A DNA stretch of 64,000 bases from Sycon ciliatum (lineage: Eukaryota; Porifera; Calcarea; Leucosolenida; Sycettidae): NCBI RefSeq assembly GCF_964019385.1, contig NC_088645.1, positions 8,862,598-8,926,597 of the forward strand, written 5' to 3'. The notes under the pieces were generated by a model. That model was given only the letters and a program-made list of their open reading frames with translations, did not search any database and was not told where the DNA came from. Positions 2,685-54,847 of the stretch are shown here, piece by piece; the first letter of the stretch is position 1, and every line of letters starts with the position of its first letter. The translations under genes were made by a program, and so were the position numbers.

Positions 2685-2714
2685 GGATGTTATAAATTTT
2701 TCATTTCTCCTTTT

Positions 2715-4340: not shown

Positions 4341-4349
4341 CTAGCACCC

Positions 4350-8521: not shown

Positions 8522-9597
8522 GCACTGATTGCCATTGCAGCCAGCTACATTGAATGTGAGGCTGCGCTACAAAGAAGCGTCAATGCTGCAACAGAATGGC
8601 TAGAGCGCTTGCACCTGTTAGTCAATAAAACGAAAACTGTCATCCTCCCGTTCTTCCATGCTAAGTTGCTAACCGACCCCCACCACCACTGCCCAAAATA
8701 AAACTCGGATAAACTCTACTAGAAACAGTAACACAGCACCGTCACTTTGGAATAATATCCCAACATGACCTGCGCTGGACAAAACACTTTGATAGTATTA
8801 TAGTGAAATCACTCAAGTCATTCAACTTGCTATTCCGCCTAAGATCAACCCTTACCACTTCTGTTCTTGCAACCATTTATACTTGACGCATCCTACCCCT
8901 GTACTCTTTTGCAAGCATCGCTGTAACCCCCATATCCTACACTAGCTTAGACAAGCTAGAGAGAATCCAGTGGAAAGCCGCACGATTACGCCTCCGCCTC
9001 CCTCTCTACACCCATATTAACCACTCTGACATTCTACACCGCATCAAGTGGCCCCACTTTCTTCTCCCTCGTTAAAGTTAAACACATAACGTTTGCTCAC
9101 TCCATCCACCACCATTACGCCCAGCCTCATACTCTAATGCTCGTAACCACAAATCGTGTCAATACATTCTATAGCGTTTGGCACACTCGCACTTGGAATT
9201 TGCCAACTGCAAGAACCGACCACTGCCTGAGTTCCCCTGTGTATAAATCTCTCCATTATTTCAATGGCCTCCAATCAACGTTACGCGATATTTAATCGCC
9301 AGATGTGTTTGAGCAAAATATATCTTCCCTGCTGCTGCATTCAATCTGCTCATGCACGAGCCACGCTCACCCATACATCTAGTCTGATCACTGCTAGCCA
9401 TGAAATTTCCGGATCATACTAATCTCACTATACACAAGGTAGAGTTTGGAAGCTTTGTCACAACTCCGAGTTTCACGTATCTCTACGATCATCAGGCAAC
9501 TGATGGATCCAAAACGGGCAGCCAGAACATAAGGTCACTATATTATCTCTTATTGGCCACAGGCCATTGCGAGAATAAAGATTTGAAAGAACAACAG
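8522..9597 (+). pseudogene. Older, decayed LINE fragment, copy A
   Basis: Second copy of the same LINE family, full of stops, with recognisable IAASYIECEAALQRSVNAAT, AATEWLERLHLLVNKTKTV and INHSDILHRIKWP, ending AATAAAGATTTGAAAGAACAAC. In A, ~110 bp between two TCACTATA repeats (~9427-9541) is absent from B. Confidence 0.65.
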
Positions 9598-14029: not shown

Positions 14030-14788
14030 ATGATCCCACCAGAGACAGGTTACGCTGATGATGTTAACTTCCTGTCTCGTAAGTTATCTTGGCTCAAGGA
14101 AGTTTTGCCCGCGATAAGTGCCACACTCGGAGTCTGGGGTCTGAAAGTAAACGAGGCGAAGACAGAATGGATCCACTTAACGTCTGAAGGTGAAAGATGG
14201 AAGAAATCTAAACAGCTTGGGTCCTACTTGGGCGAGGGTGATGATATTGCTCACCGCATGGAAAACGCCTCGCAGGTCTTGGACAGGGTGTTCTCCCTAT
14301 GGCTCCGGAGGGAGAAGGTATCAGAAAAGCGCCGGCTGAGAATATACAATGCCCTCGTGATCTCCACCCTCCTCTACAATTGTGAGACGTGGGGACTCAC
14401 GGAGGGCAACCTGGCATCCCTGGACGTATTCCACAGGAAACAGCTACGCACAATTCTTGAAATTCGTCACCCAGACCATATAACGAATGATGCATTGTAC
14501 AAGAGGTGCAGCTCTGAACCGATATCTGCAATTGTAAAGCGCCGCAGAACGCAAATGCTAGGGCACGTCCTTCGGATGGACCCCAATGCACCTGCCTTCA
14601 GAGCTATGACATGCTCCCTGAAGCGAGACGCTACCGGCCACCGTGGTAGACCGAAGACAACACTCGCCACCACGGTCATCAAGGACCTCCAAGAAAGGAA
14701 CATCCCGTTGAAGAGTGTGGGGGATTTGGAAGAGGTTTGCACCACTGCCACTGACAAGAATCAGTGGCGTGCCATGTTCCGTCAGTAG
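14030..14788 (+). pseudogene. LINE reverse transcriptase C-terminal ORF, copy A
   Basis: 252 codons starting just before the RT active site TGYADDVNFLS and continuing through palm and thumb (LRIYNALVISTLLYNCETWG, HRKQLRTILEIRHPDHI) to a RGRPKTTLATTVIKDL tail and stop. The start is the breakpoint with the piggyBac relic; the endonuclease and RT fingers are missing, so this is a 5'-truncated LINE. The frame is still intact, with only a few substitutions against copy B. A 200-N gap follows at 14801. Confidence 0.85.
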
Positions 14789-14800: not shown

Positions 14801-15000
14801 NNNNNNNNNNNNNNNNNNNNNNNNNNNNNNNNNNNNNNNNNNNNNNNNNNNNNNNNNNNNNNNNNNNNNNNNNNNNNNNNNNNNNNNNNNNNNNNNNNNN
14901 NNNNNNNNNNNNNNNNNNNNNNNNNNNNNNNNNNNNNNNNNNNNNNNNNNNNNNNNNNNNNNNNNNNNNNNNNNNNNNNNNNNNNNNNNNNNNNNNNNNN
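14801..15000. other. Assembly gap (200 N)
   Basis: Exactly 200 Ns. In copy B the bases flanking this gap are contiguous (CTGCATTTT then GTCCGCTCC at 43577-43590), so the gap may contain nothing. Confidence 0.9.
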
Positions 15001-15495: not shown

Positions 15496-15500
15496 GTTTC

Positions 15501-16300
15501 CCACACGCATACTTCCCCGTACGCACACTAGCCCATGCATGCGCGTACTTACATACACCCATTACCATACACACCTCTATCCGGTTGTGCACTTTCACTT
15601 CTCTCGGGGTTTTTTTCTTTTCCTTTTTTCACAACCATCACATGTAGCAGAGCTCAAAAGAGACAGAAGCGGAAAGGTTAGCATTTGCTGCCTTGCACGC
15701 GAACTGTTCTATTTTTATTCAGCTGTCAGAAGGAATTATCAATATCGTCTACAGAAGTGTCCTCGCAGTGGTGATGATTGTGTGCAAGAGGATCTAGTCG
15801 GCTAAAGAGCGCAGTGTAATGGTGGAGGTGACTCAACATGTTTTTTAGCACCATTGAGTGCTGAAGAACGATGTGCTGAAGAGAGAACAGGGTAGAAATG
15901 AGCACGGACGGGATACAGGATACCAATAGTACACATGGTGCTTCTGCTGCTTTGAAATTTCTACATGGAAAATAGGAATGGTCTACTCTACGACTGTGAA
16001 CCCCCGTTCTTCAGCCTCCGACAGTACTGCAAACCACCTTTCCTAGTTTTCTCAGACATGCTCTCTAAAACTGTCTTCACCTATAATGCCATTGTGGTGA
16101 TTGATTGCTGATGTATGGCACAAGAAAGGGCTTGGATCCAACACACTGTCACATGTTGATTGCAAAATAAGTGCGTTTATTATGCCTTTCATTTCTATTT
16201 TAACAGTCAACACACACACGCACACATGCTATGGGTGAATACACCCTTTTACAGCTACATAATATCATGTATAGCAAGTGTAGTATGTGAAACAACATAC
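15501..16300. other. Intron interval, copy A
   Basis: Intron between the unknown-domain exon and the EGF exon (in minus-strand order). Only short open frames; nothing recognised. Copy B: 43681-44477. Confidence 0.5.
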
Positions 16301-16732
16301 CGTCGCTTTTCTGAGGCACTGGAAAATATTCATCGGATGGAGTCTTCCATAGAGTTGTACTGATTGCAGCGGTCGTGTAGCTAATGCCTTTAATGACATT
16401 GAATGGATTGCCATGCAGCATGCTACCCTCTTTACATTTCAGCAAACAATCCTCGTCTTTCATACGTCCATCGAGTAGAAACCAGGAGTGCGTGGCATTT
16501 GCGTCAATGTAGTTGATACTGATCCGGTATTTAAAATAGGACTGAGGCTGAGTAGAATCCTCAACCAATTCAAATCCATTGCTTTTGAAGGTATGTGAGA
16601 GATTCCTGCTTGGGATGCTGACAGTGCATTTTGTAAAGTCATAGTTCAGGGGAGGTGCGTAGAAATTCCAACCTGTGTTGCTGATGAACACGGCACTGCC
16701 ACTGGGACTTGACTTCATTATAAATTCTCCAT
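16301..16732 (-). CDS. Unknown extracellular domain exon, gene copy A
   Basis: 432-nt phase 1-1 exon between an acceptor ending AACAG (16733-16734) and a GTATGT donor (16299-16300). The ~144-residue product begins DGEFIMKSSPSGSAVF and ends KTPSDEYFPVPQKSD. It has three cysteines (TKCTV and EDCLLKC), two N-glycosylation sequons (NLS and NAT), and alternating hydrophobic segments such as YFKYRISINY and SWFLLDG that suggest a beta-rich fold. No known family is recognised. The amino-acid sequence is identical to copy B. The phase and neighbours place it N-terminal to the EGF-like and mucin modules of a secreted or membrane-attached protein. Confidence 0.7.
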
Positions 16733-16809
16733 CTGTTATGCGAATAAATTGTGAGAAGAAATATTCAACACTGATAAGCTTAATTTTCAAGACAACATAA
16801 AACCCTTAC

Positions 16810-16843
16810 CGGTACAAATATCAATCACTGTCAATGAAAGCAT
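16810..16843 (-). CDS. Candidate first coding exon, gene copy A
   Basis: An ATG at 16843 opens MLSLTVIDICT and runs to a GTAAGG donor at 16809-16808 in phase 1, joining the next exon as T-D-G-E. The peptide is hydrophobic but short for a signal peptide. A second reading is possible: an AG at 16828-16829 could make this an internal 18-nt microexon with the true start further upstream. Both readings keep the frame, so the 5' end of the gene is uncertain. Confidence 0.4.
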
Positions 16844-16930
16844 TCAAATTCCAAAGTATTGGTGATATGAATAAACTCGGATGGAGAGCCAAGGATTACA
16901 CTTGAGAAGAAATGACTAAAGCCGGGTTAA

Positions 16931-17167
16931 CAAGTTACCCGTAGTTGTCCAACACTGGCAATTAAAAGTTTGATATTGATGAGTCATAACGTCCAACAGT
17001 TAGCACAATATTGACTGCTGTTGTGCCGACATTAAACGACTTGACGTTCAACTCCATTACGTATTGAGTGCACATGCCAACAGCCTTCCAACTTTGGAAG
17101 GTTCTAAGTTGTGAAATATCTTAAGAAAGGGGAAGGTGAGCAGTGTTGGACAACTATGGGTAACTTG
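16931..17167. mobile_element. Small inverted-repeat element, copy A
   Basis: 237 bp with ~27-bp arms CAAGTTACCCGTAGTTGTCC / GGACAACTATGGGTAACTTG. Flanks TTAA/TAAA hint at a TTAA target. Confidence 0.7.
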
Positions 17168-17457
17168 TAAACCTTTGGTCCTTTTGTAATAGGTGTATTT
17201 ATGCTACGACCTGTACAATGTCATACTCACTATTCCTATTTCCCGCTTGTTCCCCTTGGCGATGAGAGCCACTCACATAGAAGAGCGCATGCTCCAGTTC
17301 TGTTCTAGCTGTCTTGAGTTGTCGTTGTCCTGTTATCCTTCTTGTCTACACTCTTGTACTTCCATAATTCAATACTATAAAACCCTTGTGTTTTGGTGTA
17401 AGGGGACTTCATTAGCCGGGAGCTAACACTTTCTTCTTGGTATGAGGCCATCATTTT

Positions 17458-17769
17458 TTATATCAATGTTTCGCGTCGTCCGCGCGCATACGTTTTGATT
17501 TTTTTGGAAAAAAATTGAACATGCACAGTGAGTGTATGATCGTGCGAGTCACCAGTATGGACTGGTTGGATACGGCGAAGCTGGGACTCAGAAATGGCCT
17601 CGAGGCCAGCCTTGGTAAATGATCATTTGTTCGGCATCTGTGAGCAGTATTCTATGAGCTTACACCAGACTGCATCGATCGCCTCAAGCTGAGAGGATGC
17701 ATTGTTCCGGAGCTCTTTGTACCGCTGTTGAAGGCTGAGTACAATAACCAGGCGAAGCATGGACAACAC
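17458..17769 (-). pseudogene. Unrecognised ORF, copy A (nonsense-mutated)
   Basis: Same sequence as 45635-45946 with a single change creating TGA after MPNK (near 17622). Confidence 0.35.
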
Positions 17770-18035
17770 CGTTTGCCCCCTCTGTCCAAAGTGAATAGTT
17801 ACTCAAGCTGATAGCCCAGATTTTGTGCTTCGATGTATGTTCTGAAGACAGTATGCAGTAGTGTGCGTTCTCTGTGTTTTCTGTGTGTTGTCTGTGCGAT
17901 CTGTGCACGGTCTCTGTTCTCTGTGTGTTCCCTGTGCGATCTGTGTGTTCTTCATGTGCTGTGCAGAAGACTCCAGATATTGAAGAATTTACGAGTGTCA
18001 CAATTATATATCTACTGTGTTTATTCCCTCATTTC

Positions 18036-18094
18036 CTCTGTGCTGCGCTGATGAGTTCAAAAAGAACAAAACAGCATGCTGTCCGCAGATTGAG
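18036..18094 (+). ncRNA. Hammerhead ribozyme A1 (core mutated)
   Basis: Stems I, II and III and the GUC site are intact, but the GAAA after stem II reads AAAA. This replaces the invariant G12 general base, so self-cleavage should be lost. Copy B unit 1 keeps the G. Confidence 0.85.
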
Positions 18095-18263
18095 TATTTC
18101 GCTCCTGCTCTTGCAGCAGTTGAGCACTCTTGCGTGGGGTAGTGCCTTTGCTGTTTGCGTTATGCAGAGCTCACTGACTTGTCAGTTTGAGCACTCTGGC
18201 AAGGTACGTTCGGGCCTGATTGGAAAGTTTTATTTCCATTGCTATCAGGTTCGGCCTAATTTC

Positions 18264-18322
18264 CTCTGTGCTGCGCTGATGAGTTCAAAAAGAACGAAAC
18301 AGCATGCTGTCCACAGATCGAG
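18264..18322 (+). ncRNA. Hammerhead ribozyme A2 (stem I mismatch)
   Basis: Catalytic core intact. The 3' strand of stem I is CACAG instead of CGCAG, giving one C-A mismatch next to the cleavage site. The same variant is in B2. Confidence 0.85.
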
Positions 18323-18491
18323 TATTTCGCTCCTGCTCTTGCAGCAGTTGAGCACTCTTGCGTGGGGTAGTGCCTTTGCTGTTTGCGTTATGCAGAGCTC
18401 ACTGACTTGTCAGTTTGAGCACTCTGGCAAGGTACGTTCGGGCCTGATTGGAAATTTTTATTTCCATTGCTATCAGGTTCGGCCTCATTTC

Positions 18492-18550
18492 CTCTGTGCT
18501 GCGCTGATGAGTTCAAAAAGAACGAAACAGCATGCTGTCCGCAGATTGAG
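18492..18550 (+). ncRNA. Hammerhead ribozyme A3 (canonical type I)
   Basis: Outer helix CTC/GAG, internal loop TGTG/ATT, stem I CTGCG/CGCAG, core CTGATGA, stem II GTTC/GAAC with AAAAA loop, GAAA, stem III CAGC/GCTG with a two-base AT loop, then TC with cleavage before CGCAG. G10.1-C11.1 and A15.1-U16.1 are present. The open helix is stem I, so it is type I. The tiny stem III loop is typical of metazoan retrozymes, which may cleave best as dimers. Confidence 0.93.
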
Positions 18551-18719
18551 TATTTCGCTCCTGCTCTTGCAGCAGTTGAGCACTCTTGCGTGGGGTAGTG
18601 CCTTTGCTGTTTGCGTTATGCAGAGCTCACTGACTTGTCAGTTTGAGCACTCTGGCAAGGTACGTTCGGGCCTGATTGGAAAGTGTTATTTCCATTGCTA
18701 TCAGGTTCGGCCTCATTTC

Positions 18720-18778
18720 CTCTGTGCTGCGCTGATGAGTTCAAAAAGAACGAAACAGCATGCTGTCCGCAGATTGAG
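18720..18778 (+). ncRNA. Hammerhead ribozyme A4
   Basis: Same as A3 at every core and stem position. Confidence 0.92.
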
Positions 18779-18947
18779 TATTTCGCTCCTGCTCTTGCAG
18801 CAGTTGAGCACTCTTGCGTGGGGTAGTGCCTTTGCTGTTTGCGTTATGCAGAGCTCACTGACTTGTCAGTTTGAGCACTCTGGCAAGGTACGTTCGGGCC
18901 TGATTGGAAAGTTTTATTTCCATTGCTATCAGGTTCGGCCTCATTTC

Positions 18948-19006
18948 CTCTGTGCTGCGCTGATGAGTTCAAAAAGAACGAAACAGCATGCTGTCCGCAG
19001 ATTGAG
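18948..19006 (+). ncRNA. Hammerhead ribozyme A5
   Basis: Same as A3 at every core and stem position. Confidence 0.92.
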
Positions 19007-19175
19007 TATTTCGCTCCTGCTCTTGCAGCAGTTGAGCACTCTTGCGTGGGGTAGTGCCTTTGCTGTTTGCGTTATGCAGAGCTCACTGACTTGTCAGTTT
19101 GAGCACTCTGGCAAGGTACGTTCGGGCCTGATTGGAAAGTTTTATTTCCATTACTATCAGGTTCGGCCTCATTTC

Positions 19176-19234
19176 CTCTGTGCTGCGCTGATGAGTTCAA
19201 AAAGAACGAAACAGCATGCTGTCCGCAGATTGAG
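19176..19234 (+). ncRNA. Hammerhead ribozyme A6
   Basis: Same as A3 in core and stems; the monomer has a T to G change just after the outer helix. Confidence 0.92.
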
Positions 19235-19403
19235 TAGTTCGCTCCTGCTCTTGCAGCAGTTGAGCACTCTTGCGTGGGGTAGTGCCTTTGCTGTTTGCGT
19301 TATGCAGAGCTCACTGACTTGTCAGTTTGAGCACTCTGGCAAGGTACGTTCGGGCCTGAGTGGAAAGTTTTATTTCCATTGCTATCAGGTTCGGCCTCAT
19401 TTC

Positions 19404-19462
19404 CTCTGTGCTGCGCTGATGAGTTCAAAAAGAACGAAACAGCATGCTGTCCGCAGATTGAG
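19404..19462 (+). ncRNA. Hammerhead ribozyme A7
   Basis: Same as A3 at every core and stem position. Confidence 0.92.
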
Positions 19463-19631
19463 TATTTCGCTCCTGCTCTTGCAGCAGTTGAGCACTCTTG
19501 CGTGGGGTAGTGCCTTTGCTGTTTGCGTTATGCAGAGCTCACTGACTTGTCAGTTTGAGCACTCTGGCAAGGTACGTTCGGGCCTGATTGGAAAGTGTTA
19601 TTTCCATTGCTATCAGGTTCGGCCTCATTTC

Positions 19632-19690
19632 CTCTGTGCTGCGCTGATGAGTTCAAAAAGAACGAAACAGCATGCTGTCCGCAGATTGAG
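19632..19690 (+). ncRNA. Hammerhead ribozyme A8
   Basis: Same as A3 at every core and stem position. Confidence 0.92.
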
Positions 19691-19859
19691 TATTTCGCTC
19701 CTGCTCTTGCAGCAGTTGAGCACTCTTGCGTGGGGTAGTGCCTTTGCTGTTTGCGTTATGCAGAGCTCACTGACTTGTCAGTTTGAGCACTCTGGCAAGG
19801 TACGTTCGGGCCTGATTGGAAAGTTTTATTTCCATTGCTATCAGGTTCGGCCTCATTTC

Positions 19860-19918
19860 CTCTGTGCTGCGCTGATGAGTTCAAAAAGAACGAAACAGCA
19901 TGCTGTCCGCAGATTGAG
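19860..19918 (+). ncRNA. Hammerhead ribozyme A9
   Basis: Same as A3 at every core and stem position. Confidence 0.92.
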
Positions 19919-20087
19919 TATTTCGCTCCTGCTCTTGCAGCAGTTGAGCACTCTTGCGTGGGGTAGTGCCTTTGCTGTTTGCGTTATGCAGAGCTCACTG
20001 ACTTGTCAGTTTGAGCACTCTGGCAAGGTACGTTCGGGCCTGATTGGAAAGTTTTATTTCCATTGCTATCAGGTTCGGCCTCATTTC

Positions 20088-20146
20088 CTCTGTGCTGCGC
20101 TGATGAGTTCAAAAAGAACGAAACAGCATGCTGTCCGCAGATTGAG
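20088..20146 (+). ncRNA. Hammerhead ribozyme A10
   Basis: Same as A3 at every core and stem position. Confidence 0.92.
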
Positions 20147-20315
20147 TATTTCGCTCCTGCTCTTGCAGCAGTTGAGCACTCTTGCGTGGGGTAGTGCCTT
20201 TGCTGTTTGCGTTATGCAGAGCTCACTGACTTGTCAGTTTGAACACTCTGGCAAGGTACGTCCGGGCCTGATTGGAAAGTTTTATTTCCATTGCTATCAG
20301 GTTCGGCCTCATTTC

Positions 20316-20374
20316 CTCTGTGCTGCGCTGATGAGTTCAAAAAGAACGAAACAGCATGCTGTCCGCAGATTGAG
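20316..20374 (+). ncRNA. Hammerhead ribozyme A11
   Basis: Same as A3 in core and stems. Its monomer carries the TAG (GCGTAGGG) that ends the accidental long frame. Confidence 0.92.
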
Positions 20375-20571
20375 TATTTCGCTCCTGCTCTTGCAGCAGT
20401 TGAGCACTCTTGCGTAGGGTAGTGCCTTTGCTGTATGCGTTATGCAGAGCTCACTGACTTGTCAGTTTGACCACTCTGGCAAGGTACGTTCGGGCCTGAT
20501 TGGAAAATTTTATTTCCATTGCTATCAGGTTCGGCCTCATAAACAGTCCAGCAATGACATCAGGGAAAGGC

Positions 20572-22678
20572 TCAAAGCTGTTCAATCAGTCTATCCGGAC
20601 GAACACTACGCCGAGACGAACGTCTAACAGTGGTTTCACAGGGAGTATTCTCGACCTGTGGTAAACCAACTTCAGGAGCCGACTGCTCACAAGGAGGATC
20701 CGCCTCAACTTGTACAGTAGCAGACTGTGGCGAGACGCTAGCCGGAAAATCACTGGGCCGTGACGAATCTCCTACGTCTGACAGCACTGGTGACGGTGAC
20801 GTCTGATCGATTGTATCCAACAGTGGTTCTGGCAGCGATGCACTCAAGCTTGCCGGAACTGACCGTAGACGCAACTGATCTCGGTGACGCTTCCACAACA
20901 CATCACCCACTTGTACTTCATAGTTGTAGTCACTGAGGACACGCACAATTTGTCCCGGGACCCAACGATTACCTTTGCCGAAATTCAGCGCAAACACAGA
21001 GTCACTCTCTGTGAACGCTGGCTTGACGCGATTGCCGTCCTCATAAGCCTTTGCTTGTTGACGTACCTGCGAGGGACGCAGAGCACTGAGCCGCGTGCGT
21101 GGCTGGCGTCCAAACATCATCTCCGCCGGTGTTCTGCCGGCATGGTTGGGTGTCGTGCGGTACGTTAGCAGAAACCTGTCGAGCCGAGCTTGCAGTGGTT
21201 CGCTCGTTGCACCCATTTCCTTCAACTTCTGCTTAAACACACCCACATAGCGCTCAGCAAGTCCATTCGTAGCCGGATGGCCTGGAGCCGTCAGGGTGTG
21301 CACAATGTCGTTGGCACGGAGGAAAGCCTTGAATTCCTCGCTCGTGAATTGGGTTCCATTATCTGAAACAAGATGCTCCGGCAGACCAAACACAGAGAAC
21401 ACGTGCCGCAGAGCCGCAATAGTGGTTGCAGACGTGGCATTAGACATTGCAATTACATCCAGATACTTTGTGTATGCATCCACCACAACCAGGAACATCT
21501 TGCCCATGAATGGTCCTGCAAAGTCGATATGCACCCGTTTCCAAGGACCGTTTGGCCATGACCAGGTTCCCGACTTGGCAGGTGGACATTTCGCACTTTC
21601 TTGGCATTGAGCACATGCCTTGACCAACATTTCAATCTCTTGATCCACATTTGGCCACCATAAGTACCGTCGTGCCATTTGCTTGGTTTTGACCATGCCA
21701 AAGTGCTCCGTGTGCAAATCACATAGCAATACCATTCTTAGTGATTTGGGTATGACAACTCGTTGTCCCCACAATAGGATACCATCTTCCGCAGACAGCT
21801 CATCCCTCTTATTGTGGTAAGACCGAAACGATTGGGGTACTGAGCTAGGCCAACCATTCACCACATAGTAGAGCACCTTAGATAGCTCAGGGTCACGAGC
21901 TGTTTCCGATTTCACTACGTCTGCTTTGATTATCGTATCTTCCTCCACTAGCAATACACGAACCGTAACCATTTCCTCTGCAGACGGACTGATATTCTCA
22001 TATGGTTGCCTAGACAGGAAATCCGCGTAGACATTTTCCTTGCCTGGCAAATACTTGATCTCATAATCATAGCCAGCTAGCATTAGTGCCCATTTCTTGA
22101 TGCGAGCTGATGCAAGTGTAGGAACTGGTTCGTTGTTTCCCAGTAACTTCAATAGTGGTTGATGGTCGGTTTGAAGCGTGAAGTGGCGCCCTAGCAAGTA
22201 TTTCTGGAACTTTGTAACACCGAAAACCACAGCTACGGCTTCCCGTTCGATTTGTGCATAACGCGATTCAGCCGGTGTCAATTTCCTTGACACATAAGCA
22301 ACCGGCAAAACATCACCATTCGTTTGCCTTTGCAATAGTACGGCACCTAGACCCATTGGAGAAGCGTCCACCTGGAGTGTGACTGGCTTCTTGACATCGT
22401 AGTGTGCTAATAGCGTATGCTCACACATTGCATCTTTCAAGGCCTGGAATGCATCTTCCTCTGCCTTGCTCCATTGCCATTTCATTTCTTTCCTGAGCAG
22501 GTTGTACAGTGGTGCAGCAATCTCTGCGAACCGAGGTACAAATTTCCGTTGAAAATTGGCCGCACCCAGAAAAGAGTACAATTCATTCACGTTGTTAGGC
22601 GGCTTTGCGACTTTCAAGGCATTCACTCGATCAGGCGAGGGTGCGATTCCCTGCGCGGTTACCTGATGACCGAGGTAC
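20572..22678 (-). pseudogene. Gypsy RT-end / RNase H / integrase fragment, copy A
   Basis: Same motifs as copy B (VDASPMGLG, TDHQPLL, SDNGTQFTSEEF, GLAERYVG). In-frame but without a native start, downstream of the shared frameshift. Confidence 0.85.
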
Positions 22679-24773
22679 GTTTAGCTTATCCGCCATGTAG
22701 CTGAACTTCTTAGGATTGAGCTTGAATCCTTTCTCATTTAGGCAAGATAGCACTTGATCCACATTTTTCTCATGGATCTCCTCATCACGACCAGTACACA
22801 ACACATCGTCGATGTAGCCCCCGCATCCTGGCAAATCGCTAAGGGTTTCTTCCATTACCCGTTGGAAAATAGATACGGCGCTGTGAAAACCAAAAGGGAG
22901 TCGTTTGTACTGATACAACCCCTGCATGGTATTGATCGTGGTGTACTTCCGACATTCAGGTGCTATCTCTAGCTGGTGGTAGGCTTGCGACAAATCCAGC
23001 TTCGTGAATTTAGACCCCGGGCCCAATTTGTGCAATAGCTCCTCAAGAGTGGGTAGCGGGTATTGCTCGCATTTAGAATGCAGATTGATAGTGCCACTGT
23101 AGTCACCACAGATTCTCAACCCACCTCCTGATTTCTCTACCGTGACAGTGGGGGAGGCCCATTCTGAATGCGTGACTTTCTCGATTATACCATCTGCTTC
23201 CAATTTATTCAGAGCCTCAACATAGCTCTCCCGAATTGACAGTGGTACCGGCCTTGCCTTTCGGTAAACAGGGCTCTCATCAGACACATGCAATTTCACC
23301 TGCACGCCTTTCACCTTTCCCACTTCTGAGGTGTCGAACAACCCTGGGTATTTCTCAATGAATTTAGCGCCAGACTTTTCGACCTGGTGCACTTCGAAAA
23401 TGAGCCGTCAGATGAGAAAACAGACCTTATCGCAAAAACCGTACAGTGCAGAAAAGTGCACTTGAAAGTTGGCGAGTTTACCCACTGGTGCGTCTGGACA
23501 ACCAAGCTACAAACCGTCGTATTTCAGTCAAATATCGGTCTTTCAAGACAATCCAAGTATGTAAATCGAAGAGAAAACTCCAAGGAATCCAATGCAGCAA
23601 GCGCGATCGCGGCACGATGCTGCGTTCCCGAGATGCGAAGCCTGCAAGATACGTCACGGCACTTTGCATTTCGACACGCGAGTCAAACGCTCCAGACCTG
23701 GGGTTTCCCCCTTTTCAAGCGATCTACGATCTCGGCAACAGGCTCAGACGTCTTGGAAGCTCTCACTGCATCTTCACGAAAAAAATTGGGCGTCCTGGGA
23801 TAATGGAGATGGAAATGGCGAGCGATTTTCGTGTGACGGCGCAAGTCTAGCGCTGAAGCGATGTCTGCAGCTTGTTGCGCTGGAGCTGTGCTTTATTTGC
23901 TATCGGATTTGGGCCCAACGGGTTGCTTGTCACCAGAGCTTTCCAGAAAGCCCAAGTTTGTGGAAATCGATCAAAGGAAATAGAAAATATTATCCAAAGT
24001 AGGTGAAACAATTGTTGGTATTGCACCCAAAATTGAGGTGCAATTTGTAATGGTCTCCTACTGTCGAGGCTATAACTTTGCTTTCCCTGGTCCAAATCAA
24101 CTCTAGTTTTCTGCATACGATTCCTGGTGCTCCTGGCAATCAGATAGTACCACAAACAAAAATATGACTTTTTTGTGATAAGGTCTGTTTTCTCATCTGA
24201 CGGCTCAAATTGATTTCCAGGGGAGTTTGAACAAAGCCATTGCATCTCTGCCCAGAATAGATGGACGGTTTCCATTTGTAACCCTCACCAATAGTGTGTG
24301 CAATTGTGTGCCCATTCGGAACTCCATTTCCGCTTCCCCGAGACAATTAATCACATCTCCAGAGTAGGACACAAGGTTGATACTGGATTCCATCAGGTTA
24401 CTCAGCACACCATTGCATTGCAAGAAATCTGCGCTGCTGAGAATCGTGACAGCACTTCCCGTATCAATCTCCATTTGGATAGTGGTACCCATTACATCTA
24501 ATGATACAGTGTACGGTAGTCGCCCCATTGCATTTACACTATACATGGTGACATCGGGTTTACTAGCACATGGAACGAACTCACCAATTTCTTCCGCGAT
24601 GTGATGGACGGTTTGTCCAGACTTCTTCTTGCGGCAAGCTCTCTCGATGTGACCCACCGTACCACATGCGTGACACTTCACACTCTTGAAGCGGCACTCT
24701 TCCGGTTTGTGACCAGCCTTGTCACACCGAAAACATTTCTTGTCGTGCGACTTGAAAGTTGGAGTTGGCGCTC
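22631..24773 (-). pseudogene. Gypsy zinc-knuckle / protease / RT fragment, copy A (interrupted)
   Basis: Carries the same CCHC, IDTGSAV and YIDDV motifs as copy B but is split by the element at 23401-24209. The RT palm lies left of the insertion and the protease right of it. Confidence 0.85.
23401..24209. mobile_element. Inverted-repeat element in gypsy pol, A only
   Basis: 809-bp insertion absent from copy B. The ends are near-perfect ~37-bp inverted repeats beginning TGAGCCGTCAGATGAGAAAA. Comparison with the empty site shows duplication of only AA. No convincing transposase frame is seen, so it is a non-autonomous DNA element of unassigned superfamily. Confidence 0.8.
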
Positions 24774-26177: not shown

Positions 26178-26382
26178 TAGTACTAGTAGTAGTAGTAGTG
26201 GTAGTGGTAGTGGTAGTGGTAGTGGTAGTGGTAGTGGTAGTGGTAGTGGTAGTGGTAGTGGTAGTAGGAGTAGCAGTAGCAGTAGCAGTAGCAGTAGCAG
26301 TAGCAGTAGCAGTAGCAGTAGCAGTAGCAGTAGCAGTAGCAGTAGCAGTAGCAGTAGCAGTAGCAGTAGCAGTAGCAGTAGC

Positions 26383-26425
<43 letters not shown>
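26178..26425. repeat. AGT/GGTAGT/AGCAGT microsatellite, copy A
   Basis: Compound trinucleotide-based repeat; it produces poly-Ser, poly-Thr, poly-Val or poly-Tyr frames on both strands. It differs in length and internal makeup from copy B. Confidence 0.95.
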
Positions 26426-27260
<835 letters not shown>

Positions 27261-28592: not shown

Positions 28593-29033
28593 GCGTGTCT
28601 TCTGGGATGGTAGCTGGGATCTGCGCTTGGCTGGTGGGATTAGTAGTTGGTGTCGTTGCTGCGGCTGTTGTGGGGGCTGGGGTCGTGGGGGCTGGTGTTG
28701 TTGTGGCTTGTGTTGTGGGGGCTAGTGTTGTTGGTGTTGTGGGGGCTGGTGTAGTTGTGGCTGGTGTTGTTGTGGCTGGTGTTGTTGTGGCTTGTGTTGT
28801 GGGGGCTAGTGTTGTTGGTGTTGTGGAGGCTGCTGTAGTTGTCGCTGGTGTTGTTGTGGCTGGTGTTGTTGTGGTTGGTGTTGTGGGGGCTGGTGTTGTG
28901 GGGGCTGGTGTTGTCGTGGCTGGTGTTGTGGCGGCTGGTGTTTTGGCGGCTGGTGTTGTGGGGGCTGGTGTTGTGGGCGCTGGTGTTGTGAGGGCTGGTG
29001 GCATTGTTGCTGGTGCAGTCCTTGGTTGTCCAG
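28593..29033 (-). CDS. Mucin-like Thr/Pro/Ala exon, gene copy B
   Basis: 441-nt phase 1-1 exon bounded by an acceptor ending TTTAG (29034-29035) with a long pyrimidine tract and a GTAAGTG donor at 28592. It encodes ~147 residues, almost all Thr, Pro, Ala and Ser in TTPAPTTPA-type units, as in the PTS domains of mucins, ending IPATIPEDT. It would form an extended O-glycosylated stalk between the EGF-like module and the C-terminus. It is identical to copy C and over five-fold shorter than the copy A exon. Confidence 0.75.
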
Positions 29034-29307
29034 CTAAACAAAGAGGAGGCAAATAGGAGGAATACAGAAGTACGGCAAACAGAATCTCAATAATTTAGAA
29101 TTCTCTACATCAACATAGTAATCGCAGTAGTCTCAGTAATTATGGTCTTGTAGAGAGTCAACTGTGTGGTTTTCCATGACAAGAGCAGATTTGCATAATG
29201 GCACACAAAGAAATAAATCCAGTTGTGAAACTGATGAGACCTTTCGTACCATTACTTCTCAATTCAGCACGTGGTAACGAGAGAGCCTGGAAGCTCATGG
29301 CCCTACG

Positions 29308-29406
29308 CTATGCTTTTTTTGCCTAGCGAGAGTCAACTTTCTCTTTGCATTCGAGGGTAATACGACTTCATCTACCGCCTTGATGACCTAGGCAAAAAAA
29401 GCATAG
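29308..29406. repeat. Short inverted-repeat hairpin, copy B
   Basis: Same arms as 2587-2684 with one more T in the left arm. Confidence 0.6.
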
Positions 29407-31066: not shown

Positions 31067-31069
31067 CTA

Positions 31070-44909: not shown

Positions 44910-44986
44910 CTGTTATGCGAATAAATTGTGAGAAGAAATATTCAACACTGATAAGCTTAATTTTCAAGACAACATAAAACCCTTAC

Positions 44987-46189: not shown

Positions 46190-46203
46190 TACTGTGTTTA
46201 TTC
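46190..46203. repeat. Retrozyme target-site duplication, left
   Basis: TACTGTGTTTATTC, repeated exactly at 48323-48336. The same bases flank the left side of the array in copy A (18013-18026). Confidence 0.85.
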
Positions 46204-46212
46204 CCTCATTTC

Positions 46213-46271
46213 CTCTGTGCTGCGCTGATGAGTTCAAAAAGAACGAAACAGCATGCTGTCCGCAGATTGAG
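46213..46271 (+). ncRNA. Hammerhead ribozyme B1
   Basis: Canonical; keeps the core G that A1 has lost. Confidence 0.92.
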
Positions 46272-46440
46272 TATTTCGCTCCTGCTCTTGCAGCAGTTGA
46301 GCACTCTTGCGTGGGGTAGTGCCTTTGCTGTTTGCGTTATGCAGAGCTCACTGACTTGTCAGTTTGAGCACTCTGGCAAGGTACGTTCGGGCCTGATTGG
46401 AAAGTTTTATTTCCATTGCTATCAGGTTCGGCCTCATTTC

Positions 46441-46499
46441 CTCTGTGCTGCGCTGATGAGTTCAAAAAGAACGAAACAGCATGCTGTCCACAGATCGAG
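46441..46499 (+). ncRNA. Hammerhead ribozyme B2 (stem I mismatch)
   Basis: CACAG variant shared with A2, so it predates the segmental duplication. Confidence 0.85.
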
Positions 46500-46668
46500 T
46501 ATTTCGCTCCTGCTCTTGCAGCAGTTGAGCACTCTTGCGTGGGGTAGTGCCTTTGCTGTTTGCGTTATGCAGAGCTCACTGACTTGTCAGTTTGAGCACT
46601 CTGGCAAGGTACGTTCGGGCCTGATTGGAAAGTTTTATTTCCATTGCTATCAGGTTCGGCCTCATTTC

Positions 46669-46727
46669 CTCTGTGCTGCGCTGATGAGTTCAAAAAGAAC
46701 GAAACAGCATGCTGTCCGCAGATTGAG
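46669..46727 (+). ncRNA. Hammerhead ribozyme B3
   Basis: Canonical core and stems. Confidence 0.92.
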
Positions 46728-46896
46728 TATTTCGCTCCTGCTCTTGCAGCAGTTGAGCACTCTTGCGTGGGGTAGTGCCTTTGCTGTTTGCGTTATGCAG
46801 AGCTCACTGACTTGTCAGTTTGAGCACTCTGGCAAGGTACGTTCGGGCCTGATTGGAAAGTTTTATTTCCATTGCTATCAGGTTCGGCCTCATTTC

Positions 46897-46955
46897 CTCT
46901 GTGCTGCGCTGATGAGTTCAAAAAGAACGAAACAGCATGCTGTCCGCAGATTGAG
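46897..46955 (+). ncRNA. Hammerhead ribozyme B4
   Basis: Canonical core and stems. Confidence 0.92.
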
Positions 46956-47124
46956 TATTTCGCTCCTGCTCTTGCAGCAGTTGAGCACTCTTGCGTGGGG
47001 TAGTGCCTTTGCTGTTTGCGTTATGCAGAGCTCACTGACTTGTCAGTTTGAGCACTCTGGCAAGGTACGTTCGGGCCTGATTGGAAAGTGTTATTTCCAT
47101 TGCTATCAGGTTCGGCCTCATTTC

Positions 47125-47183
47125 CTCTGTGCTGCGCTGATGAGTTCAAAAAGAACGAAACAGCATGCTGTCCGCAGATTGAG
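47125..47183 (+). ncRNA. Hammerhead ribozyme B5
   Basis: Canonical core and stems. Confidence 0.92.
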
Positions 47184-47352
47184 TATTTCGCTCCTGCTCT
47201 TGCAGCAGTTGAGCACTCTTGCGTGGGGTAGTGCCTTTGCTGTTTGCGTTATGCAGAGCTCACTGACTTGTCAGTTTGAGCACTCTGGCAAGGTACGTTC
47301 GGGCCTGATTGGAAAGTTTTATTTCCATTGCTATCAGGTTCGGCCTCATTTC

Positions 47353-47411
47353 CTCTGTGGTGCGCTGATGAGTTCAAAAAGAACGAAACAGCATGCTGTC
47401 CGCAGATTGAG
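47353..47411 (+). ncRNA. Hammerhead ribozyme B6 (stem I end mismatch)
   Basis: Stem I 5' strand is GTGCG instead of CTGCG at its outermost pair; core intact and probably still active. Confidence 0.88.
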
Positions 47412-47580
47412 TATTTCGCTCCTGCTCTTGCAGCAGTTGAGCACTCTTGCGTGGGGTAGTGCCTTTGCTGTTTGCGTTATGCAGAGCTCACTGACTTGTC
47501 AGTTTGAGCACTCTGGCAAGGTACGTTCGGGCCTGATTGGAAAGTTTTATTTCCATTGCTATCAGGTTCGGCCTCATTTC

Positions 47581-47639
47581 CTCTGTGCTGCGCTGATGAG
47601 TTCAAAAAGAACGAAACAGCATGCTGTCCGCAGATTGAG
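47581..47639 (+). ncRNA. Hammerhead ribozyme B7
   Basis: Canonical core and stems. Confidence 0.92.
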
Positions 47640-47807
47640 TATTTCGCTCCTGCTCTTGCAGCAGTTGAGCACTCTTGCGTGGGGTAGTGCCTTTGCTGTT
47701 TGCGTTATGCAGAGCTCACTGACTTGTCAGTTTGAACACTCTGGCAAGGTACGTCCGGGCCTGATTGGAAAGTTTTATTCCATTGCTATCAGGTTCGGCC
47801 TCATTTC

Positions 47808-47866
47808 CTCTGTGCTGCGCTGATGAGTTCAAAAAGAACGAAACAGCATGCTGTCCGCAGATTGAG
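47808..47866 (+). ncRNA. Hammerhead ribozyme B8
   Basis: Canonical core and stems; follows the 227-bp monomer. Confidence 0.92.
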
Positions 47867-48035
47867 TATTTCGCTCCTGCTCTTGCAGCAGTTGAGCACT
47901 CTTGCGTAGGGTAGTGCCTTTGCTGTATGCGTTATGCAGAGCTCACTGACTTGTCAGTTTGACCACTCTGGCAAGGTACGTTCGGGCCTGATTGGAAAAT
48001 TTTATTTCCATTGCTATCAGGTTCGGCCTCATTTC

Positions 48036-48094
48036 CTCCGTGCTGCGCTGATGAGTTCAAAAAGAACGAAACAGCATGCTGTCCGCAGATTGAG
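48036..48094 (+). ncRNA. Hammerhead ribozyme B9
   Basis: Core and stems canonical; one T to C change in the stem I internal loop (CGTG). Confidence 0.9.
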
Positions 48095-48263
48095 TATTTC
48101 GCTCCTGCTCTTGCAGCAGTTGAGCACTCTTGCGTGGGGTAGTGCCTTTGCTGTTGGCGTTATGCAGAGCTCACTGACTTGTCAGTTTGAGCACTCTGGC
48201 AAGGTACGTTCGGACCTGATTGGAAAGTTTTATTTCCATTGCTATCAGGTTCGGCCTCATTTC

Positions 48264-48322
48264 CTCTGTGCTGCGCTGATGAGTTCAAAAAGAACGAAAC
48301 AGCATGCTGTCCGCAGATTGAG
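48264..48322 (+). ncRNA. Hammerhead ribozyme B10, last in array
   Basis: Canonical core and stems. The motif ends exactly at the element boundary before the right TSD, so the final ribozyme is complete and could cut the 3' tail off the transcript. Confidence 0.92.
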
Positions 48323-48336
48323 TACTGTGTTTATTC
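48323..48336. repeat. Retrozyme target-site duplication, right
   Basis: Second copy of the 14-bp target sequence. Its first two bases (TA) also match the monomer, so the minimum duplication is 12 bp and the maximum 14 bp. Confidence 0.85.
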
Positions 48337-48402: not shown

Positions 48403-48588
48403 TGTTATGTCCCCTTGCGGACTAACATTCCATTACACTCAGGCATTCTTACTGACACACACAAACACTTGCATTTGTAAGACATTCCTCTTGGTCAGGT
48501 AAAGTAACAACAACAACCATATGCGAGCATGCGCAGTCAGTAGCAAACGGTGTAGTAGATATATAATGACTAACTTGCATACACAACA
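48403..48588 (-). repeat. Gypsy 3' LTR, copy B
   Basis: 186 bp, two mismatches to the 5' LTR. Preceded on the minus strand by a polypurine tract at about 48589-48600. Confidence 0.9.
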
Positions 48589-48845
48589 ACTGCCCCCTTT
48601 CAAGAATGTTCCAGGAAATATTCTACCACAATTAAATACCTCAAAAATCGTTGAAGAAACACATAAAATAAGTTCATCAATCCACCGTACGTGAATTCTT
48701 AAACTTTGACACAGCACTACAATAACATAATCTGACGCAGGAATCCGTCAGTCAATATTAGCAATACCAAGGATCTTGCACACTATTGTACATGGTAATA
48801 ATTACTAGTTCGCTAAACAGTCCAGCAATGACATCAGGGAAAGGC

Positions 48846-50952
48846 TCAAAGCTGTTCAATCAGTCTATCCGGACGAACACTACGCCGAGACGAACGTCTA
48901 ACAGTGGTTTCACAGGGAGTATTCTCGACCTGTGGTAAACCAACTTCAGGAGCCGACTGCTCACAAGGAGGATCCGCCTCAACTTGTACAGTAGCAGACT
49001 GTGGCGAGACGCTAGCCGGAAAATCACTGGGCCGTGACGAATCTCCTACGTCTGACAGCACTGGTGACGGTGACGTCTGATCGATTGTATCCAACAGTGG
49101 TTCTGGCAGCGATGCACTCAAGCTTGCCGGAACTGACCGTAGACGCAACTGATCTCGGTGACGCTTCCACAACACATCACCCACTTGTACTTCATAGTTG
49201 TAGTCACTGAGGACACGCACAATTTGTCCCGGGACCCAACGATTACCTTTGCCGAAATTCAGCGCAAACACAGAGTCACTCTCTGTGAACGCTGGCTTGA
49301 CGCGATTGCCGTCCTCATAAGCCTTTGCTTGTTGACGTACCTGCGAGGGACGCAGAGCACTGAGCCGCGTGCGTGGCTGGCGTCCAAACATCATCTCCGC
49401 CGGTGTTCTGCCGGCATGGTTGGGTGTCGTGCGGTACGTTAGCAGAAACCTGTCGAGCCGAGCTTGCAGTGGTTCGCTCGTTGCACCCATTTCCTTCAAC
49501 TTCTGCTTAAACACACCCACATAGCGCTCAGCAAGTCCATTCGTAGCCGGATGGCCTGGAGCCGTCAGGGTGTGCACAATGTCGTTGGCACGGAGGAAAG
49601 CCTTGAATTCCTCGCTCGTGAATTGGGTTCCATTATCTGAAACAAGATGCTCCGGCAGACCAAACACAGAGAACACGTGCCGCAGAGCCGCAATAGTGGT
49701 TGCAGACGTGGCATTAGACATTGCAATTACATCCAGATACTTTGTGTATGCATCCACCACAACCAGGAACATCTTGCCCATGAATGGTCCTGCAAAGTCG
49801 ATATGCACCCGTTTCCAAGGACCGTTTGGCCATGACCAGGTTCCCGACTTGGCAGGTGGACATTTCGCACTTTCTTGGCATTGAGCACATGCCTTGACCA
49901 ACATTTCAATCTCTTGATCCACATTTGGCCACCATAAGTACCGTCGTGCCATTTGCTTGGTTTTGACCATGCCAAAGTGCTCCGTGTGCAAATCACATAG
50001 CAATACCATTCTTAGTGATTTGGGTATGACAACTCGTTGTCCCCACAATAGGATACCATCTTCCGCAGACAGCTCATCCCTCTTATTGTGGTAAGACCGA
50101 AACGATTGGGGTACTGAGCTAGGCCAACCATTCACCACATAGTAGAGCACCTTAGATAGCTCAGGGTCACGAGCTGTTTCCGATTTCACTACGTCTGCTT
50201 TGATTATCGTATCTTCCTCCACTAGCAATACACGAACCGTAACCATTTCCTCTGCAGACGGACTGATATTCTCATATGGTTGCCTAGACAGGAAATCCGC
50301 GTAGACATTTTCCTTGCCTGGCAAATACTTGATCTCATAATCATAGCCAGCTAGCATTAGTGCCCATTTCTTGATGCGAGCTGATGCAAGTGTAGGAACT
50401 GGTTCGTTGTTTCCCAGTAACTTCAATAGTGGTTGATGGTCGGTTTGAAGCGTGAAGTGGCGCCCTAGCAAGTATTTCTGGAACTTTGTAACACCGAAAA
50501 CCACAGCTACGGCTTCCCGTTCGATTTGTGCATAACGCGATTCAGCCGGTGTCAATTTCCTTGACACATAAGCAACCGGCAAAACATCACCATTCGTTTG
50601 CCTTTGCAATAGTACGGCACCTAGACCCATTGGAGAAGCGTCCACCTGGAGTGTGACTGGCTTCTTGACATCGTAGTGTGCTAATAGCGTATGCTCACAC
50701 ATTGCATCTTTCAAGGCCTGGAATGCATCTTCCTCTGCCTTGCTCCATTGCCATTTCATTTCTTTCCTGAGCAGGTTGTACAGTGGTGCAGCAATCTCTG
50801 CGAACCGAGGTACAAATTTCCGTTGAAAATTGGCCGCACCCAGAAAAGAGTACAATTCATTCACGTTGTTAGGCGGCTTTGCGACTTTCAAGGCATTCAC
50901 TCGATCAGGCGAGGGTGCGATTCCCTGCGCGGTTACCTGATGACCGAGGTAC
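48846..50952 (-). pseudogene. Gypsy RT-end / RNase H / integrase fragment, copy B
   Basis: Continues pol in a shifted frame. It holds the RT connection (ELYSFLGAANFQRKFV), an RNase H core (LQVDASPMGLGAVLL, TDHQPLL), an integrase zinc finger (HTEHFG ... CAQCQ), the integrase core (VDAYTKYLDV, SDNGTQFTSEEF, GLAERYVGVF) and a C-terminal domain with a Ser/Pro-rich tail. The catalytic residues appear intact. Copy A (20572-22678) looks the same over this stretch, so the duplication or a later conversion homogenised it. Confidence 0.85.
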
Positions 50953-52236
50953 GTTTAGCTTATCCGCCATGTAGCTGAACTTCTTAGGATTGAGCTTGAA
51001 TCCTTTCTCATTTAGGCAAGATAGCACTTGATCCACATTTTTCTCATGGATCTCCTCATCACGACCAGTACACAACACATCGTCGATGTAGCCCCCGCAT
51101 CCTGGCAAATCGCTAAGGGTTTCTTCCATTACCCGTTGGAAAATAGATACGGCGCTGTGAAAACCAAAAGGGAGTCGTTTGTACTGATACAACCCCTGCA
51201 TGGTATTGATCGTGGTGTACTTCCGACATTCAGGTGCTATCTCTAGCTGGTGGTAGGCTTGCGACAAATCCAGCTTCGTGAATTTAGACCCCGGGCCCAA
51301 TTTGTGCAATAGCTCCTCAAGAGTGGGTAGCGGGTATTGCTCGCATTTAGAATGCAGATTGATAGTGCCACTGTAGTCACCACAGATTCTCAACCCACCT
51401 CCTGATTTCTCTACCGTGACAGTGGGGGAGGCCCATTCTGAATGCGTGACTTTCTCGATTATACCATCTGCTTCCAATTTATTCAGAGCCTCAACATAGC
51501 TCTCCCGAATTGACAGTGGTACCGGCCTTGCCTTTCGGTAAACAGGGCTCTCATCAGACACATGCAATTTCACCTGCACGCCTTTCACCTTTCCCACTTC
51601 TGAGGTGTCGAACAACCCTGGGTATTTCTCAATGAATTTAGCGCCAGACTTTTCGACCTGGTGCACTTCGAAAATTGATTTCCAGGGGAGTTTGAACAAA
51701 GCCATTGCATCTCTGCCCAGAATAGATGGACGGTTTCCATTTGTAACCCTCACCAATAGTGTGTGCAATTGTGTGCCCATTCGGAACTCCATTTCCGCTT
51801 CCCCGAGACAATTAATCACATCTCCAGAGTAGGACACAAGGTTGATACTGGATTCCATCAGGTTACTCAGCACACCATTGCATTGCAAGAAATCTGCGCT
51901 GCTGAGAATCGTGACAGCACTTCCCGTATCAATCTCCATTTGGATAGTGGTACCCATTACATCTAATGATACAGTGTACGGTAGTCGCCCCATTGCATTT
52001 ACACTATACATGGTGACATCGGGTTTACTAGCACATGGAACGAACTCACCAATTTCTTCCGCGATGTGATGGACGGTTTGTCCAGACTTCTTCTTGCGGC
52101 AAGCTCTCTCGATGTGACCCACCGTACCACACGCGTGACACTTCACACTCTTGAAGCGGCACTCTTCCGGTTTGTGACCAGCCTTGTCACACCGAAAACA
52201 TTTCTTGTCGTGCGACTTGAAAGTTGGAGTTGGCGC
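50905..52236 (-). pseudogene. Gypsy gag-end / protease / RT fragment, copy B
   Basis: Frame with two CCHC zinc knuckles (CFRCDKAGHKPEEC and CHACGTVGHIERAC), an aspartic protease site IDTGSAVTILS, and the fingers-palm of a Ty3/gypsy RT (LDLSQAYHQ, LPFGFHS, YIDDVL). It has no start of its own: a TGA lies just upstream at 52237-52239, and the gag start (ATG at 52281-52283, MSRSKLEIFEKGDF) is in another frame, consistent with an internal gag deletion. It ends by frameshift at about 50953 and stops at 50905. Domestication is unlikely, since both ends are broken in the same way in copies A and B. Confidence 0.85.
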
Positions 52237-52310
52237 TCACGAAAATCACCTTTTTCAAATATTTCAAGCTTCGATCGCGACATCTTCGTCTTTTATCTTC
52301 GTCGCCAAAT

Positions 52311-52496
52311 TGTTATGTCCCCTTGCGGACTAACATTCCATTACACTCATGCATTCTTACTGACACACACAAACACTAGCATTTGTAAGACATTCCTCTT
52401 GGTCAGGTAAAGTAACAACAACAACCATATGCGAGCATGCGCAGTCAGTAGCAAACGGTGTAGTAGATATATAATGACTAACTTGCATACACAACA
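52311..52496 (-). repeat. Gypsy 5' LTR, copy B
   Basis: 186 bp, starts TGTTGTGTATGC and ends GGGGACATAACA on the minus strand. A TATATA box sits ~25 bp from its start and would drive the element. Confidence 0.9.
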
Positions 52497-52512
52497 AGGA
52501 GTTAGTTACTTG

Positions 52513-53935: not shown

Positions 53936-54847
<912 letters not shown>

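Follow-up and report, generated by a model that had tools for sequence, protein, structure and literature searches.

The 64,000-nucleotide stretch of Sycon ciliatum contig NC_088645.1 analysed here, referred to below as the window, holds two tandem arrays of a short repeat, c1 and c2, whose units carry hammerhead ribozyme motifs of type I topology. Our analysis supports the view that c1 is a non-autonomous, non-coding retrotransposon with one type I hammerhead per 228-nt unit. We consider it very probable that the element is a metazoan retrozyme of the kind that lacks long terminal repeats (LTRs), inserted by internal priming beside the hammerhead, with the enzyme most likely supplied by a Penelope-like element (PLE). 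The kind of element is known, and it is the anatomy of its insertions that is new.

Array c1 (18027..20540, + strand) is resolved by Tandem Repeats Finder into 11.0 copies with a period of 228 and 98% matches, which bears out the eleven 228-bp monomers previously predicted from the sequence alone. The array amounts to 11 x 228 bp plus 6 bp and has lost its right end; its units depart from their majority at 0-4 positions in a unit-by-unit comparison, and the GC content of the unit is 49.1%, that is, below 50%. The original prediction had credited each monomer with the full motif. In the form first described this holds for nine of the eleven units, whereas units 1 and 2 are altered: in unit 1 (18027) GAAA has become AAAA at phase 42, a catalytic position, and the hammerhead is probably inactive, while in unit 2 (18255) CACAG replaces CGCAG and leaves one C-A mismatch in stem I. 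The hammerheads begin with that of unit 1 (18036..18096, +) and follow every 228 bp, from 18264-18324 to 20316-20376. A representative intact copy, 18492..18552 (+), combines an outer CTC/GAG helix, stem I CTGCG/CGCAG, the CTGATGA box, stem II GTTC/GAAC and GAAA. Stem III is present as had been claimed, but a better reading than CAGC/GCTG with a two-base loop is ACAG/CUGU with a CAUG tetraloop (ACAG/CTGT and CATG in the DNA). By the usual rules for hammerheads, cleavage in this copy is predicted to fall after 18539, between TGTC and CGCAG.

Array c2 (46204..48323, or to 48324 with the shared junction A; + strand), which the original prediction did not include, comprises nine units and ~69 nt with ten hammerheads, and its 3' end reads ..CGCAGATTGAGT(A), directly 3' of the last hammerhead. 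It is bordered on both sides by TACTGTGTTTATTC, a duplication of 13-14 bp: the left target site duplication, ACTGTGTTTATTC, occupies 46191..46203 (+) and the right one, again ACTGTGTTTATTC, 48324..48336 (+), with the junction A/TA common to the duplication and the array end. The left target-site repeat of c1 (18014..18026, +) is likewise ACTGTGTTTATTC, and its right partner is missing. A segment of ~28 kb is duplicated in tandem here, with c2 in its second copy, and, because the left flanks of both arrays are identical, c1 and c2 are read as one insertion that was later duplicated. Since the duplicate c2 has a normal end, the loss of the right end of c1 is a secondary rearrangement or deletion, which joined the array to sequence whose counterpart lies at 48814 in the second segment copy.

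Hammerhead fold, subfamilies and copy number

In a search of 2.8 kb around c1, the Rfam family RF02275 (Hammerhead_HH9) matches all eleven units on the + strand with 23.3-28.8 bits and E-values of 1.9e-4 to 0.011, and across the whole window all 21 matches with E up to 2 belong to HH9 (each 0.0044 to 0.25), eleven in c1 and ten in c2. These matches stand by E-value, and every one lies below the curated cut-off, as no Rfam cut-off is reached anywhere in the window (best HH9 score 28.8 bits vs a cut-off of 52 bits). HH9, the best-scoring hammerhead family, shares the conserved core and an A-rich loop II with the repeat; it is known as an isolated mammalian hammerhead and not as a tandem element. 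A covariance model of the family itself, built on 36 rows of which five come from the window, finds the same 21 motifs there and no others up to E = 1. Given the modest E-values of single copies, the case rests on repetition, covariation and insertion anatomy, and we regard a chance origin of the hammerhead array as excluded.

The covariation alignment draws on the window and the rest of the genome and covers 36 of 38 distinct motifs from three subfamilies, all but L024:2197 and L046:4935. Sixteen pairs make up the hammerhead pairing, with 96.7% of 576 cells paired, and three of them (two in stem II, one in stem I) change on both sides, in 19 cells. The covariation score of 0.109 compares with 0.065 +- 0.006 after shuffling and was matched in 0 of 500 shuffles, which ignore the relatedness of rows, and these figures are not to be read as probabilities. 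Weaker measures gave less separation: the number of pairs changed on both sides was equalled in 31 of 500 shuffles, and none of the 500 had fewer further pair types.

The subfamilies differ within the ribozyme. Stem II is GTTC/GAAC in subfamily A, GTCC/GGAC in B and GCTC/GAGC in C, the last also having CTGTG/CACAG as stem I; units measure 228 bp in A, 226 bp in B and 232-239 bp in others, with one of 251 bp. Between the consensus sequences of A (64 units) and B (11 units), 8 of 48 columns differ in the hammerhead 5' part as against 0 of 180 elsewhere. The differences include compensatory stem changes, and two longer units in the comparison bear the B form, as if the ribozyme had been swapped like a cassette between A and B. 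The copy at locus L066 combines stem II of B with stem III of A.

Copies are numerous in the host assembly, which comprises 538 Mb in 313 contigs. This assembly holds 55 wnt matches (best E 1.4e-50), compared with none in any of 14 control genomes; wnt is not known outside animals, which marks the host as one. A search of the assembly for COX1 gave no match. The exact 36-nt core of subfamily A occurs 1364 times (757 + 607 by strand) and the 30-nt core of subfamily B 727 + 795 times, the control patterns, reversed in the case of A, yielding 0 for each. Matches to the 228-bp unit at 81-100% identity lie on at least 13 contigs among the 40 of 55 candidates that were scored, and some monomers are identical at separate loci. 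Exact-pattern scans gave no match for subfamilies A and B in IMG/VR, nor for C in GTDB genomes.

Anatomy of the insertions

Retrozyme matches were mapped in 43 loci, giving 54 rows. Two rows were dropped, L059 with its 3' end outside the locus and L047:6387 with duplicate flanks, and the row pairs of L046 and L035 were merged, which leaves 50 insertions, including both window arrays (one duplicated insertion) and both halves of a back-to-back pair, L072. The 3' end, visible in all of these, falls at unit phase 67-74 in 46 of the 50, a span of 8 nt (phases of subfamily B being shifted by 2). This common end comes directly after CGCAGATTGAG, the outer 3' strand of hammerhead stem I, and ~12 nt beyond phase 57, where cleavage is predicted. 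Loci chosen by similarity to the whole unit, where a hammerhead was not required, show the same 3' end in nine cases out of twelve, and so do both copies of subfamily C, which were met by chance in L043 and L055.

The same boundary emerges from the genome at large. Of 2031 exact hammerhead 3' halves (a 21-mer), 913 extend 11 nt into the following unit and 55% do not, whereas a 12-nt extension of the same 21-mer in the opposite direction is retained in 1769 of 2031, a loss of 13%; with losses this unequal, mutation alone does not explain the break at the 3' end. Some 850-1100 genome copies thus appear to end beside the hammerhead. TA follows 31 of the 38 ends that hold the motif, and this dinucleotide may be the template's own.

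The 5' ends, by comparison with the fixed 3' boundary, are scattered over the unit (41 insertions). Junction repeats were counted in 41 insertions, omitting c1, for its lost right end, L035, L060 and L072:1, where the 5' end is not visible, L063, L066 and L065:391, where the 3' end lies elsewhere, and L055:2515 and L055:3153, two copies with normal 3' ends that are crowded by their neighbours. Of the 41, 21 are flanked by direct repeats of at least 7 bp, compared with a mean of 2.2 and a maximum of 5 in 200 re-pairings of flanks from different insertions; among insertions with non-repetitive flanks the count is 9 of 18, compared with a control mean of 0.2 and a maximum of 2. The 20-bp flanks are rich in AT (81% on the right and 74% on the left, vs 53% in the window), and many are TA, TAA or TATG microsatellites.

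More than one unit is present in 27 of 41 inserts, and 40 of 41 measure 63-1136 bp, c2 reaching 2121 bp with both ends seen. Among 16 multi-unit arrays, 7 consist of identical units throughout, which repeated copying round a single small template would be expected to produce. Some copies also stand back to back, with 3' ends outward and 5' ends meeting: L072 (306-1333 on the minus strand, 1338-2163 on the plus strand) and L028, where a 29-nt remnant is followed by a 336-nt copy. Extension from both nicked strands would produce such pairs. Face-to-face pairs occur too, in L040 (3080-3091) and in L072, where 1-285 stands against 306, the 3' ends abutting the same short (TA)n tract, so that orientation alone is no proof of two-strand extension. 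Two further back-to-back candidates, recognised by coordinates only, lie on contig C1 near 48992845-48993217 and 50178847-50179277.

Mobilisation and its alternatives

A fixed 3' anchor, scattered 5' ends and junction repeats together form the pattern that known biology leads one to expect of target-primed reverse transcription with 5' truncation. As in published retrozymes, the arrays would be transcribed, the hammerheads would cut the RNA between TGTC and CGCAG into 228-nt monomers, and a host ligase would circularise these. A reverse transcriptase would nick AT-rich DNA, frequently at a T or TA in the target, and would start cDNA synthesis within the RNA at GAUUGAG(UA), immediately 3' of the hammerhead's outer stem; the proposed internal priming site is GAUUGAGUA, where the template UA beside GAG could pair with the primer. 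From there the enzyme would copy backwards through the hammerhead into the remainder of the unit, in some cases for several rounds, and stop at variable 5' points, and repair would leave target site duplications of ~7-14 bp. Copies cross the cleavage site without a break from an anchor on its 3' side, so the template would have been intact at that site, either as a closed circle or as an uncut multimer.

The enzyme most likely comes from a PLE. Within its single open frame, three units of the array contain no reverse transcriptase or GIY-YIG endonuclease domain, and the element is thus not itself a PLE; at least 13 GIY-YIG Penelope-like matches are present in the genome, among the 150 of 944 candidates that were scored, and one of these, located on a small contig, is possibly contamination. 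A hammerhead-like core, CTGATGA..GAAA, stands at the end of all three PLE 3' regions inspected (L067, L068 and L071), which show two alternative 3' ends ~36 nt apart, one short and two longer. A further locus, L069, has an inverted copy of the same PLE end upstream. The PLE protein of the green anole, from the element Poseidon, is described as starting reverse transcription internally on its own RNA, downstream of a hammerhead, and as cutting AT-rich DNA and extending both strands (PMC11167929). The short and long ends of the three sponge copies resemble the PLE 'tail' of that work, and the retrozyme has in common with Poseidon an upstream hammerhead, an internal start, AT-rich targets and two-strand extension (compare L072 and L028). 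They differ in that Poseidon starts ~85-92 nt past the hammerhead cut, as computed from the positions in the paper, and the retrozyme at ~12 nt, and in that Poseidon encodes a reverse transcriptase and an endonuclease whereas the retrozyme is non-coding (PMC11167929). We tentatively propose, with rather less than even confidence, that the hammerhead has a further function, its folded 3' edge acting as a start signal for the PLE reverse transcriptase on circular RNA, which the enzyme would travel round after priming at GAUUGAG(UA) from nicked AT-rich DNA, possibly from the two DNA strands simultaneously, and that retrozymes and PLEs form one mobilisation system in which the hammerhead is the shared template mark.

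A number of observations weigh against insertion by a PLE enzyme beside an active hammerhead. The three PLE copies end ~85 or 120 nt past their own core and not 12 nt, and a search for a shared tail found GAGT alone in common between PLE and retrozyme ends; for these two reasons the assignment to a PLE is weak. For the anole element, hammerhead cleavage is reported not to be needed for insertion in vitro (PMC11167929). The most stable predicted fold of the isolated motif (minimum free energy, MFE, -16.5) lacks the hammerhead, whose own fold at -12.7 is 3.8 kcal/mol less stable, and the 228-nt circle behaves likewise (MFE -74.7, z = -1.9, equalled or undercut in 6 of 200 shuffles; hammerhead fold -67.8, 6.9 kcal/mol less stable). 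Such energies leave out tertiary contacts, and they are not decisive since covariation supports the hammerhead; self-cleavage of the monomer is, on these models, plausible but not assured. As to the insertions, 31 of the 43 loci lie on contig C1 and most were picked for an exact core, which may bias the counts, and four of the 50 3' ends fall elsewhere (window c1, L063, L066 and L065:391). The 5' ends are not quite uniform (Kolmogorov-Smirnov p = 0.045), with 6 of 41 in phase 1-10 (unadjusted p = 0.0085). In 20 of the 41 insertions no repeat reaches 7 bp, and repeats say nothing in the many flanks that consist of microsatellites. Identical units can also arise by unequal crossing-over or from a linear multimer transcribed from a homogeneous array, so that a circular template is not proved.

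The alternative that deserves most attention, though we consider it unlikely, retains the retrozyme and assigns its mobilisation to a long interspersed nuclear element (LINE) of CR1/L2/RTE-like type by ordinary target-primed reverse transcription. LINE insertions commonly show variable 5' truncation and duplications of comparable size, and the window itself has a LINE-like reverse transcriptase open reading frame (ORF) at 14030-14788 (RVT_1, 26.6 bits vs a cut-off of 29.6). What speaks for a different enzyme is the position of the 3' end: instead of coinciding with an RNA terminus or poly(A) tail, it is internal to the transcribed unit, ~12 nt beyond the cleavage site; a cleaved monomer would end at TGTC. 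Nor was a LINE with the same tail seen, though no systematic search was made. An ordinary satellite, amplified by unequal crossing-over with the hammerhead as a relic or passenger, would account for the long homogeneous arrays (at least 2.9 kb in L035, 2.1-2.5 kb in the window) and for the placement of the window arrays within a ~28 kb tandem duplication. That explanation is very improbable. A 3' end that is fixed and target sites that are duplicated go most of the way to refuting it, and the insertions are dispersed, almost all of them (40 of 41) between 63 and 1136 bp long, with identical monomers at some separate loci.

Still more remote are two explanations that look to the surroundings or the coding capacity of the array. 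A plant-type LTR retrozyme riding on a neighbouring Ty3/gypsy element is suggested by the adjacency of array and element in both segment copies. The array, however, lies ~79 bp outside the element, whose LTRs have a short repeat of their own, the hammerhead is of type I and not type III, and the junction repeats exceed 4 bp. For this locus the LTR-retrozyme reading is refuted, the array being outside the LTRs and its flanks sharing the 13-bp repeat alone; in the 2-kb flanks of the window arrays no direct repeat beyond that one was found (primer-binding site and polypurine tract were not looked for). A gene for a repeat protein is hardly more credible. It would draw on the fact that 228 bp equal 76 codons and that one + frame runs open through the array, as an 847-aa ORF (17874-20417, +) in whose frame the unit has 0 stops, and among three weak Pfam matches to three units the whole-protein sum for DUF3553 is 22.6 bits vs a cut-off of 20.3. 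Yet no Pfam stretch passes alone, the 226-bp units of subfamily B and the units of 232-239 bp break the frame, and the open frame is probably due to chance. A retrozyme inserted from an internal start beside its hammerhead, most likely by a PLE enzyme, remains the account we prefer.

Surroundings and relation to known elements

The segmental duplication in the window has a period of ~27-28 kb, its pieces are 94-100% identical and its copies differ; they comprise 1924-6918, 28648-33644 and 56236-61949, then 15496-20148 and 43673-48324, and finally 20540-23401 and 48814-51675. The duplication could be either real or an assembly artefact, and a gap of 200 N lies at 14801-15000. Long micro- and minisatellites include an array of the 15-bp TTGTTGGGGCTGGTG at 123-2279, an AGTAGC repeat at 26178-26425 and 53649-53935, and a GTA repeat at 27132-27259 and 54642-54847, the last two differing in length between the segment copies. 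The Ty3/gypsy element beside c2 (48403..52497, - strand) has LTRs at 48403-48589 and 52311-52497, 98.9% identical, with pol ORFs between them, and is bordered by a 4-5 bp repeat, (A)GGAG. Of its other copy, next to c1, the pol ORFs are found at 20572..23392 (-), the outer LTR being lost there; the pol domains are RNase H and integrase (20572-22626) and reverse transcriptase (equivalent region 50905-52146). A short interspersed nuclear element mobilised by a LINE would have a Pol III promoter head and a tail in common with that LINE; a scan for tRNA genes with ARAGORN gave none in the window.

Two further features recall PLEs. An ORF at 3119-3592 (+), with related DNA near 29.8 kb and 58.1 kb, has no Pfam match and resembles a Penelope-like reverse transcriptase in its motif RYIDD... 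Another hammerhead-like motif of type I, in this case minimal, lies at 9457-9501 (-); it reads AGTTGC CTGATGA .. GAAAC TCGGAGT TGTGAC, occurs also in L039 (twice) and L053, and looks like the minimal hammerhead of a PLE.

Metazoan non-LTR retrozymes have been described by Cervera and de la Pena (2020) as type I hammerheads in tandem units of ~150-450 bp with transcripts of 170-400 nt, less than 50% GC, no LTRs, target site duplications of more than 4 bp and dispersed copies, as making circles in animals, and as co-occurring with PLEs that bear minimal hammerheads (PMC7229834). Units of 220-240 bp in Acropora millepora, 350-390 bp in mussel and 330/350 bp in the axolotl are given in the same source. 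The identification of the array as such a retrozyme, already proposed in the original prediction, is supported by its hammerheads, unit size, GC content, junction repeats, dispersal and co-resident PLEs; compared by description, the published elements have in common with it a hammerhead in each unit, small tandem units, low GC, duplications, dispersal and PLEs (PMC7229834). A fixed 3' end beside the hammerhead is not described in the sections of that paper covered here, and no such end in animal retrozymes was found in the literature searched, supplements not being covered. The satellite-like W-elements of Schistosoma, from another lineage, are also repetitive, hammerhead-bearing and animal when compared by description, and a possible target site duplication is reported at one of them (PMC8490949). 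Plant LTR retrozymes differ, with type III hammerheads inside LTRs and 4-bp duplications, whereas the c1 family has type I hammerheads and junction repeats of more than 4 bp, and its window arrays have no LTRs.

The source of the mobilising enzyme has been discussed for retrozymes in general. The repeats are reported to show no conserved motif that points to a mobilising autonomous element (PMC7761336), PLEs have been offered as strong candidates only (PMC7229834), and a review of 2024 continues to list LINEs or PLEs as candidate mobilisers (PMC11722881). In the sponge, the ~850-1100 apparent insertion ends mark one start point and a set of DNA target features, and with these the mobilisation of retrozymes becomes a matter for direct biochemical test. 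They also raise the possibility that the ribozyme may serve, in addition, as a binding or start signal for the enzyme that mobilises it.

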